This document shows, in pieces, positions 54,973 through 58,951 of a DNA stretch of 64,000 nt. Below the pieces are notes generated by a model. It did no database searches. It worked only from the letters and a program-made list of their open reading frames with translations, and was not told where the DNA came from. Position numbers and translations under genes: made by a program. The stretch is from Candidatus Bathyarchaeota archaeon (GTDB lineage Archaea; Thermoproteota; Bathyarchaeia; Bathyarchaeales; Bathycorpusculaceae): assembly GCA_029881805.1 (NCBI GenBank), contig JAOULW010000003.1, forward strand, positions 1-64,000, given 5' to 3'. Position 1 is the first letter of the stretch, and every line of letters begins with the position of its first letter.

Positions 54973-55113
54973 CCTTGAGAAGTTTCGGTTGGGTTTAAAA
55001 AATGTCTAGAATGTCTGCTTTCTGGATTGTTTGCCACGCATGATTGTACTATGAGATTGTTTCATAAAGCTTTTAAGTAGTTGTCTCAAATAGTTATATG
55101 GGTGGTGCGCGCG

Positions 55114-55767
55114 GTGACTTTACCTTCTAATCGCAAATGGCTTTCAATAACGCTTCTTGCGATAATAGTCCCAGTGGGACTGCTAACGACTTTTAAAATA
55201 ACAGGAATAATAAGAGAGCCGCTCGCACCAGAGATTGTCAATGTAGAAGCGGTTTTTGGGAATGTTACAAGGCCAGAAAGCTACACATTCATTGATAGAG
55301 TCGTGGAAAACCATTATGACAATGGGTTCAGCAGAGTGAAGATGTACGCTCACGTGATTGATTATGAGGAAAAGCATCCTACATTTGGCGAGCACATATG
55401 GCTAAGCATAACCGCGACTGCACAACTGCAAGAGGGCTTCATTTACTCTATGCTACTCAAGCTCTCAGTCCACGACGCCGACAGTTGTTTGGTTATAGTC
55501 CTATTGTTCCCTTGGGGTGCCCCTCTTACTGAGAATCTAAAAACTGAGAGAACCGACACAACTGGTACACAGACCAATGAAGCTTACGTTTATGCAACTG
55601 GAATTGATGAACCGAAGAACTGTTTCATCAGAATTATAGTCACTTGGCAGTTTCTTGACAGGAGAATTCTGGACCATTGGATGACTGCGACCTTGGAAAC
55701 TACGTATTTTAATGGAACAGCCTATCAAAAAGTGATTATACCAGTTAAGATTGGAGTTTTAGTTTAA
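55114..55767 (+). CDS. Membrane-anchored extracellular protein sharing modules with the next gene
   Basis: About 217 residues. An N-terminal anchor/signal helix (WLSITLLAIIVPVGLL) precedes an extracellular beta region. Two motifs recur in the following protein: YEEKHPTFGEHIWLSITATA (compare YEENQPTFNDGMWLRIATTA there) and WQFLDRRILDHWMTATLE (compare WEFLDWATNDQNHWLNVTAE there). The function is unknown. GTG 55114 lies after GGGTGGTG; the frame opens at TTG 55081. It ends 1 nt into the next gene's ATG (TAATG), so they are one operon. Confidence 0.68.
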   Translation: MTLPSNRKWLSITLLAIIVPVGLLTTFKITGIIREPLAPEIVNVEAVFGNVTRPESYTFIDRVVENHYDNGFSRVKMYAHVIDYEEKHPTFGEHIWLSITATAQLQEGFIYSMLLKLSVHDADSCLVIVLLFPWGAPLTENLKTERTDTTGTQTNEAYVYATGIDEPKNCFIRIIVTWQFLDRRILDHWMTATLETTYFNGTAYQKVIIPVKIGVLV

Positions 55768-56924
55768 TGAAAAGAGTCTATTCGATAATGCTTTTAGTAA
55801 TACTGCTATTATCAATTATACCAACAGCATTTGCTTGGGAGATGGAAAGACCAGCTAATAATGTGACATTTGAGTCAGAAACAGTGGCAAACGCCACTAC
55901 TAATGGTGAGGCTACAATTGGCTTAGGCGTTCACGTCGAAAGTTATGAAGAAAACCAGCCAACTTTCAATGATGGTATGTGGTTAAGAATAGCTACCACT
56001 GCAAACACCAGAAAAGGAATAAAATATGGATGGGGCAATGTTAGTTATTCTTGGGTGGATATAGATGTTCCTGGGCTTAACCCTCAAGTTTTAATGAGCC
56101 CAGACTATCCTTTTTTCTTTGTAGGGATTTCCCTCTTTTGTAGTGTTCGTTTCTATGGCGGACCAAAAAGTGCCGAGTTCGCGTCACTCTATGTATCCAA
56201 TAATGGCGTTCTTTGTTTCGATAATAGATTGAATGAGACACAGCAACTTCCAGTGCCTGATGCCTTTTATGGCAATGAGATTCCAAGTACCGAAGGACTT
56301 AACGCCTTTATTGCACCGTTCTGGAGAGAGCTCAATCCGCACTTAGGAGGTAGAGTGTTATATGTAGATCACATTTATATTCAGCCGCCGGGTGAATATG
56401 ATCCAAATCGTCACTGCGCAGTCATAAGCTGGATTGATGTTCCGGACAAATTCGGTAATCCACAGACTTTCCAAGTGATCATAGAATTATCAAGACCACA
56501 AGGGTATGCATATAGGCAAAACCTGATTTGGTTCCAATATAAAAACGTCACATTTGATCAGGAGACAATTGTTGGAATAGAAGACCACGGAGGTTGGGAC
56601 GGTTTCTCAATAGACCCTCAAATTCCTCAAGCAATTCAAGGGAACAAGGCAATAAAAATTGGGCAAGTATACGGATGCAATAGCTTTCTCGTTTCAGCAA
56701 TAACCATCAAATTAAGTTCGCAAGACTCTGGTTCGGACTCATATATTGTTCCCTATTCAGGCTGGATAAGAGGGTACAACGTGGAACTAAACAGCACATT
56801 GCCTGATGATGAACTAAGATACGCTCTCGCGTTTGGAAATGTCCTCTCGTTGGGCCTAGACGCTTTTGGCATGCTCGTCGGAGGACTCTTTGGAGCAATA
56901 GTTAGTGGGGGGGCTTTTTCCTAG
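55767..56924 (+). CDS. Large extracellular protein, 5' part (before -1 frameshift)
   Basis: 385 residues. A signal peptide (MKRVYSIMLLVILLLSIIPTAFAWE) is followed by the module shared with the upstream protein, then a jelly-roll/lectin-like region (~90-300) with NGVLCFDNRLNET and GGWDGFSID, typical of nidogen-like or NIDO-type outer domains. Near the end a Gly-rich hydrophobic helix starts (LAFGNVLSLGLDAFGMLVGGLFGAIVSGG). The frame stops with TAG just after seven G (56907-56913). A -1 shift there joins it without a break to the downstream frame and completes the helix, so this is probably the 5' part of one gene of about 1,060 codons. Confidence 0.75.
   Translation: MKRVYSIMLLVILLLSIIPTAFAWEMERPANNVTFESETVANATTNGEATIGLGVHVESYEENQPTFNDGMWLRIATTANTRKGIKYGWGNVSYSWVDIDVPGLNPQVLMSPDYPFFFVGISLFCSVRFYGGPKSAEFASLYVSNNGVLCFDNRLNETQQLPVPDAFYGNEIPSTEGLNAFIAPFWRELNPHLGGRVLYVDHIYIQPPGEYDPNRHCAVISWIDVPDKFGNPQTFQVIIELSRPQGYAYRQNLIWFQYKNVTFDQETIVGIEDHGGWDGFSIDPQIPQAIQGNKAIKIGQVYGCNSFLVSAITIKLSSQDSGSDSYIVPYSGWIRGYNVELNSTLPDDELRYALAFGNVLSLGLDAFGMLVGGLFGAIVSGGAFS
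56907..56913 (+). other. Run of seven G at the frame junction
   Basis: GGGGGGG is read as GGG-GGG-G in the first frame, and TAG follows at 56922-56924. Moving back one base gives GGC-TTT-TTC-CTA, an uninterrupted frame of more than 2 kb. A G7 run is a classic site for polymerase slippage or -1 ribosomal frameshifting, and also for assembly error. Confidence 0.7.
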
Positions 56925-56989
56925 GTTGCGGTCTAGTCATTGTTGAATTAGCTGATATCGCTGCAAGAAATCAGGCTGAGGCTAGACTT

Positions 56990-58951
56990 TTGGAACTTGA
57001 AACTAAAGAGGCTACAGCACATGCAGATGGTGAGGTGGTTGACGCATCATTTGATGTTCTTGCCTATTGGGAGTTTCTGGATTGGGCGACAAATGATCAG
57101 AATCATTGGCTTAATGTTACGGCAGAACTATCTTATATGGAAATTTCAGTTGATGGTGTCTTGGTTGACACCAATATGACATCAACTTCAGTGATCCTGA
57201 AAACTGTGCCAGACGCAGGAAACACCATTAATGCCCCAAACGTTAGAGAAATTAGCCCAGGAACTTACAAGGCATTTGTAGGAGTAAATATTCCTTGGCC
57301 TGGATTCAATGATACGGACGATTATTACAAAATCTATGTTGGCATAGGCATGGTTTTACACTTAACTATGAAGCCACATACTAACACAGACTTTGACTTG
57401 TATCTTTATAATCCAAACGGTCAATTCATTAAATCCTCGAAAAGAGGAACAAATGCTATTGAGGAGATTTACCACCCTACCAATATGACTGGGTATTGGT
57501 TCATAAGAGTTAACGCAGTTGCAAGTTATGGAATTTATGCGCTTACGATAGATCAGCCTTATCCTGCTCCGTGGGTGACTGTTTTAGCCAAAATCACACC
57601 TAGTGAAGCTGAAATTAGAGATGTTTTTGTTATGATAGGAATGGGCGGAGTCTACTCTTTCTCTCCGGTTACTGTGGCTGTTTTGCCAGAATATTACTAC
57701 ATTGGTGTTGAATCACCATTTACTAGAGAGCATTACAGCTATACCTTCCATCACTGGGCTGACAACAACTCAACATTTCAGTCAAGATACGAAAACATAC
57801 AAAGCAACAAAACATTCATAGCATACTATACAGAACAGTTCTTCAACAATCCGCCAAACATCCCTCAGAAGCCTGAGGGCAAAACCAATGGTCACGTATA
57901 CACTAATTACCCTTACTATACAAACACAACAGACTCCGAAGGAGACGATCTCCGATACGAGTTTAGCTGGGGAGACGAAACAAGCAACACATTAACAAGC
58001 TGGTTCACATCCGGAGCCAACGCAAGTGCATCACATTCTTGGACTAGACCCGGAACATACAGTGTTTCGGTTCGAGCACAAGACAGCTACACTCTATGGA
58101 GCAGTTGGTCCACCACCTTAACAGTAAATATCAACCAGAACGACGCAGGCACAGGCTATGATGCTGGCAACAGCTTCACTGCGGCCACCTACGTGAGTCC
58201 AAGCTCGTACACAGGCGCACTATACCAATCCAACCCGACCGACACAACCGATTGGTATCAGTTCTGCGCCGCAGAAGGCCAGATCATAGGCATAACCATG
58301 ACGCCTCCATCCAACGCCAACTTCAACCTAGAGCTTTACGATCCAAGCGGAACCTTCAAGGATGGATCCTATCTCGGAACTGGTTATATGGACAGCGTCT
58401 CCTACACCGCCGACGCAAGCGGCAATTGGAGAGCCAAGATCTACATCGCAAACGGAGAAGGCCAATACTCGTTCTCTGTTACGGTTAGTTCTTCGGGCGG
58501 AGGTGAGGGAGGCTGTCCAATCCTTTATGTTTACAGCAACGAAGAATACGTCTGCGAAGGTTTACTGGATATTCACAATCCCGAAGGTATAGACATCATA
58601 ACATACCACAACTTGGCGGCTATACCTCAATCTGTCAAAGGCACTTACCTTTTCCGACTGATTGAACATCCCTACACGTGTAGCCACATAGACCAGATCA
58701 AGCTCTACGCTGTCCTAGAGAATGGAAGGGTGATTAAGCTACCGCTCGTATGGGCTTGGCACTCGGAAGACGGCAGCGTACTGCCACAACTACTATTCAG
58801 CGACGACTACAAAACAGACACACTAGGCGCAATCCATAACAACGGAACAAGCCAAAGTATAAACGTAAGATTCATAGCACTACCACGAAACCTCAAAATC
58901 ATAAGATTCATATTCCAAATAGAAGGAAATAACCCAGAATTCAAAACCTAG
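56990..58951 (+). CDS. Large extracellular protein, 3' part: PPC, PKD-like and C-terminal domains
   Basis: 653 residues from TTG 56990, but the open frame reaches back to the G run at 56907-56913, adding 26 codons that finish the transmembrane helix (FFLGCGLVIVELADI). Order: the shared WEFLD...HW module (~20-60), a PPC domain (~110-185: KIYVGIGMVLHLTMKPHTNTDFDLYLYNPNG), a spacer with HHWADNNSTF, a PKD/Ig-like domain (~300-390: YEFSWGDETS, WTRPGTYSVSVRAQDSY), a second PPC domain (~395-500: DWYQFCAAEGQIIGITMTPPSNANFNLELYDPSG), and a C-terminal domain opening PILYVYSNEEYVCEGLLDIHNPEG. PPC and PKD domains occur in secreted peptidases and surface proteins; no catalytic motif is seen. Confidence 0.75.
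   Translation: MELETKEATAHADGEVVDASFDVLAYWEFLDWATNDQNHWLNVTAELSYMEISVDGVLVDTNMTSTSVILKTVPDAGNTINAPNVREISPGTYKAFVGVNIPWPGFNDTDDYYKIYVGIGMVLHLTMKPHTNTDFDLYLYNPNGQFIKSSKRGTNAIEEIYHPTNMTGYWFIRVNAVASYGIYALTIDQPYPAPWVTVLAKITPSEAEIRDVFVMIGMGGVYSFSPVTVAVLPEYYYIGVESPFTREHYSYTFHHWADNNSTFQSRYENIQSNKTFIAYYTEQFFNNPPNIPQKPEGKTNGHVYTNYPYYTNTTDSEGDDLRYEFSWGDETSNTLTSWFTSGANASASHSWTRPGTYSVSVRAQDSYTLWSSWSTTLTVNINQNDAGTGYDAGNSFTAATYVSPSSYTGALYQSNPTDTTDWYQFCAAEGQIIGITMTPPSNANFNLELYDPSGTFKDGSYLGTGYMDSVSYTADASGNWRAKIYIANGEGQYSFSVTVSSSGGGEGGCPILYVYSNEEYVCEGLLDIHNPEGIDIITYHNLAAIPQSVKGTYLFRLIEHPYTCSHIDQIKLYAVLENGRVIKLPLVWAWHSEDGSVLPQLLFSDDYKTDTLGAIHNNGTSQSINVRFIALPRNLKIIRFIFQIEGNNPEFKT

Follow-up and report, generated by a model that had tools for sequence, protein, structure and literature searches.

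A one-base frame change near a short G run divides the gene for a putative surface protein in a Bathyarchaeia genome

Inactivation and phase variation at homopolymer tracts were described for prokaryotic genes in a survey that stresses poly-A and poly-T tracts (PMC2831843). A frame change can also be resolved during translation, as found for fucA of Saccharolobus solfataricus, whose alpha-L-fucosidase is produced by -1 programmed frameshifting with the participation of a slippery heptamer (defined as an in-phase X-XXY-YYZ motif), rare codons and a putative stem-loop (PMC8211752). The protein family relevant here comprises exported NIDO/PPC proteins from Bathyarchaeia (genomes G051, G112, G100, G179, G120 and G091), which share the order signal peptide, NIDO-like domain, hydrophobic hairpin, beta domain and PPC domain, the latter matched by Pfam in some members only.

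The gene under study lies in the window, the whole 64,000-nt stretch that was analysed (bases 1-64000 of contig C16, in a genome of 2.2 Mb distributed over 39 contigs). Like the genes of the homopolymer-tract systems, it codes a surface protein, carries a homopolymer and has lost its frame by one base, but its run of seven G residues (G7) is short and, instead of being close to the 5' end, is found midway through the gene. It shares with fucA the -1 frame change at a homopolymer in an archaeal gene whose relatives are full-length, while it lacks both a slippery heptamer and a significant RNA structure. The domain order of the NIDO/PPC proteins is conserved in the window copy and a similar partner gene is present in several of the genomes; the relatives are encoded in one frame while the window copy is split, and this copy has an additional PKD domain and a second PPC domain. 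The G120 and G179 proteins feature dockerin-like repeats at their carboxyl terminus instead (L099:1489-3723 and L097:1447-4452; Dockerin_1 E-values of 5e-4 and 0.009, respectively, both below the cut-off). The interpretation favoured, with a probability of roughly 0.58, is that the window carries a broken or switched-off allele generated by a one-base slippage indel, fixed and reversible forms being taken together.

Frame 0 is open from 55749. It terminates at a TAG codon (56922-56924) positioned 9 nt beyond G7, while the -1 frame is open for more than 2 kb, both as proposed in an earlier sequence-only reading of this DNA. The frame change is confined to a stretch of 16 nt because no other place has the two frames open together (Table 1). 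The frame 0 codons at the junction are AGT GGG GGG GCT TTT TCC TAG, and since a T5 run is found within the same 16 nt the indel is not attributable to G7 alone. G7 is the only run of at least seven G or C in the window. Shuffled window sequences hold about 1.8 such runs, so that the occurrence of G7 is unremarkable and what is remarkable is its position: with 24 runs in 2.2 Mb, simple arithmetic gives a chance of about 2-3 in 10,000 that a 16-nt stretch touches one of them. Codon bias, learned from the long ORFs of the same genome, follows frame 0 up to G7 and changes to the -1 frame immediately beyond.

Table 1. Features of the split gene and its surroundings (positions in the window).
Feature	Position	Strand	Remarks
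Upstream partner	55081..55767	+	228 aa; shorter paralogue, has motifs in common with either half
N-terminal part, frame 0	55767..56924	+	signal peptide, NIDO-like domain, hydrophobic tail
NIDO-like domain	56184..56534	+	Pfam PF06119, E 3.4e-5, 24.4 bits; just below cut-off of 25
Hydrophobic region	56823..56944	+	residues 353-393 of the joined protein; probable helical hairpin; frame changes within
Only 16 nt with both frames open	56906..56921	+	site of frame change
C-terminal part, -1 frame	56906..58951	+	681 codons open
G7 run	56907..56913	+	GGG GGG G in frame 0
T5 run	56915..56919	+	alternative indel site
Possible internal start	56978..56992	+	GAGG (56978-56981) 8 nt before TTG 56990
PKD-like domain	57920..58126	+	sub-threshold match
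PPC domain	58247..58444	+	PF04151, E 3e-5, just below cut-off; two PPC stretches in the protein

That the two frames derive from one ancestral gene for an exported protein, as the sequence-only reading had suggested, is well supported by sequence comparison. Homologues from six genera, each in a different Bathyarchaeia genome, are single ORFs across the equivalent point; they measure 850 aa (G051), 738 aa (G112), 596 aa (G100), 1001 aa (G179) and 744 aa (G120), while the G091 homologue runs into the end of its contig and is incomplete. The frame is thus uninterrupted in all six relatives and is interrupted in the window copy by the TAG codon. When the joined window protein is compared to each of the six, a single local alignment of 442-645 columns crosses the junction in every case. 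Comparison of the window DNA to the proteins of the relatives localizes the shift closely: the G179 match ends in frame +2 at 56903, and those of G100 and G120 start again at 56909 in frame +1. The 228-aa protein encoded upstream gives a further indication, also put forward earlier: it matches both the N-terminal part (E 1e-9, in the PTF..WL region) and the C-terminal part (E 4e-4, in the W-FLD..HW region). Adjacent partner genes of this kind are found also in G051, G052, G091 and G100, and on sequence grounds the surface-protein gene and its shorter paralogue are a conserved two-gene module.

The genomes searched include no second member of the source genus, and the comparison is thus among relatives, not strains. 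A homologue search at the contig level yielded two Bathyarchaeia matches, A05DMB-4 (G112) and GMC4_bin_42_sub (G100), which belong to the same order and have full-length homologues; the remaining matches were weaker and came from other phyla, and no sister strain was found. No relatives of the surface protein were detected in the viral contigs searched. An interrupted copy of the gene exists elsewhere too, since the orthologue in G052 carries an in-frame TAG (minus strand, at about L026:7809) where the close relative G051 encodes Trp. This codon may be a nonsense mutation or, less likely, may encode pyrrolysine. In the former case it would fit the broken-allele reading, as a sign that another genome tolerates losing the gene.

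Judged from its domains, the intact product would likely be a multi-domain protein anchored at the surface and serving in adhesion or binding. The NIDO-like match exceeds the Pfam cut-off in the G120 homologue. The C-terminal part starts with the second hydrophobic helix, followed by the beta domain with the W-FLD..HW motif, PPC, PKD, PPC again and a C-terminal domain common to the G051 and G112 proteins. The hydrophobic region spanning the frame change is also present in relatives and probably folds as a helical hairpin; in the predicted structure of the G100 homologue (mean pLDDT of 33) the only hint of it is a pair of low-confidence helices at residues 345-367 and 372-400. The earlier proposal that the shift completes a transmembrane helix needs correction. 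The N-terminal part by itself already ends in a hydrophobic stretch of membrane-spanning length, and what is gained by the shift is the other half of an apparent two-helix hairpin. As written in the assembly, the frame 0 product is a 385-aa polypeptide that has the NIDO-like domain and the hydrophobic tail and lacks the whole C-terminal half.

In the favoured interpretation a single base would have been gained or lost in the G7/T5 stretch of this adhesin-like gene, in the cells themselves and not in the assembly alone. The broken allele would be recent, because the C-terminal part remains open over its full length with normal codon bias. Replication slippage would be the origin of the indel, left unrepaired in a cell without MutS. 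A search for MutS_I found nothing in this genome but was positive in 11 of 14 control genomes, and EndoMS/NucS leaves indels of 1-2 bp unrepaired in mycobacteria (PMC11551767). Slippage products would thus be expected to persist.

The alternative that survives best, although an unlikely one, is an assembly or base-calling error, in which case the run would be in frame in the cells and the gene unbroken. The sequence is that of an assembled genome, and errors of this kind are classically located in homopolymers. The 24 runs of at least seven G or C found genome-wide bear on this possibility in both directions. The reading frame is the same on both sides of 16 of them, switches at two and is one-sided at six. 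The two frame-switching runs are the window G7 and the only G9 of the genome, both in genes of exported or membrane type. Each is consistent with one base having been under-called, and the genome has no G8 run. Against an error, the 16 in-frame runs include many in housekeeping genes (by appearance of the sequence, resembling those for mevalonate kinase, HisRS and SdhA), no A or T run of at least nine breaks a frame, and the breaks are located in exported or membrane genes. They affect three of seven genes of exported type and none of about 12 others, numbers that are small and that include one doubtful break; the excess in exported-type genes is suggestive at best. With the same caution on small numbers, tolerated mutation accounts for the pattern better than miscalling at random would. 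A scan for frame breaks over 874 kb, the sequence stretches covering about 40% of the genome, revealed no other convincing case, the candidates examined being ordinary neighbouring genes. It counts little toward assembly quality because its strict filter had a sensitivity of only 16% on simulated deletions.

The G9 run (contig C5 67331-67339; L036:1501-1509, L168:11331-11339) breaks a second gene. It separates a signal-peptide-like N-terminal part of 111 aa from a C-terminal part of at most 777 codons, in which membrane helices and a kinase-like domain were recognized, the latter below the cut-off (Pkinase E 4e-6). No homologue of this protein was found in 90 relatives. Another G7 run is positioned toward the end of a gene for a membrane protein on contig C14 (7232-7238; L047:1501-1507), where the next frame past the run reads GGLLFLILLPFAFTVIIGIWRER, similar to a membrane helix. 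A third break, directed to +1, is possible at this run, but the other frames there are hydrophobic too; a search of the relatives for homologues of the protein gave none. Contig C10 has three G7 runs within 5.3 kb (295373-300643; L043, L044, L045) in neighbouring genes whose frames are all intact; two of these genes are long and encode proteins of exported type.

Within the reading of a broken allele, a reversible form would be one in which the G run slips both ways and switches the full-length protein on and off. Phase variation of this type, one of the two explanations offered in the sequence-only reading, is doubtful. In its favour, the run is inside a surface-protein gene, MutS was not found, the second break coincides with the only G9 and affects the kinase-like membrane protein, and the possible third one, at the C14 G7, affects a membrane protein too. 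A run of seven is nevertheless short for a contingency tract, undisturbed G7 runs are found in housekeeping genes too, and no G run is present at the equivalent site in the DNA of the three relatives inspected (G051, G112 and G100). The wider proposition that an archaeon devoid of MutS switches exported proteins by G-run slippage, the NIDO/PPC protein at G7 and the kinase-like membrane protein at G9, is equally improbable. The literature searches made did not turn up any paper that deals with phase variation in Bathyarchaeia.

Relatives from the same family have poly-G tracts of 14 to more than 50 Gs, mostly in genus g5. These long tracts were considered as evidence for contingency loci and dropped, being largely intergenic or at contig ends. 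Very long G runs inside contigs are found at G009:C6:50881-50908, G017:C13:78337-78352 and G032:C2:435576-435590.

The other explanation offered earlier was programmed -1 ribosomal frameshifting, which, like transcriptional slippage, would yield a short and a full-length protein from one mRNA. The direction of the shift is indeed -1, the stop codon closely follows the run and a GGG codon in the P-site allows pairing to be restored once it has slipped by -1. The elements expected for recoding are however missing: the junction has no in-phase X-XXY-YYZ heptamer, the run is not conserved at this site in the three relatives inspected, and the downstream RNA, where a stimulatory structure would be expected at a distance of 5-9 nt, is not stabler than its shuffles. 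The latter was assessed on 100 nt (56914-57013), with structures without pseudoknots, against 200 shuffled sequences, of which 40 fold as well (z -0.77). Programmed frameshifting is not supported, and recoding of either type is quite improbable here; it is retained because intact relatives do not exclude it, as in the archaeal fucosidase precedent, whose interrupted gene is expressed though most relatives are full-length (PMC8211752).

Two separate proteins, the second initiated at TTG 56990, are highly improbable: the earlier statement that the second frame has no good start is weakened by the GAGG upstream of this codon, and TTG starts look common in the genome, but the relatives are fused, homology and codon bias begin at the junction, upstream of the TTG, and the product would carry extracellular-type domains without a signal peptide.

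If the window carries a broken allele, or if the assembly slipped, the consequence is mainly one of annotation: two genes that would be listed as 'hypothetical' are one exported protein of Bathyarchaeia with a conserved partner. If the length of the run varies among cells, the locus would be a case of surface proteins that phase-vary by slippage, in an uncultured class of archaea.
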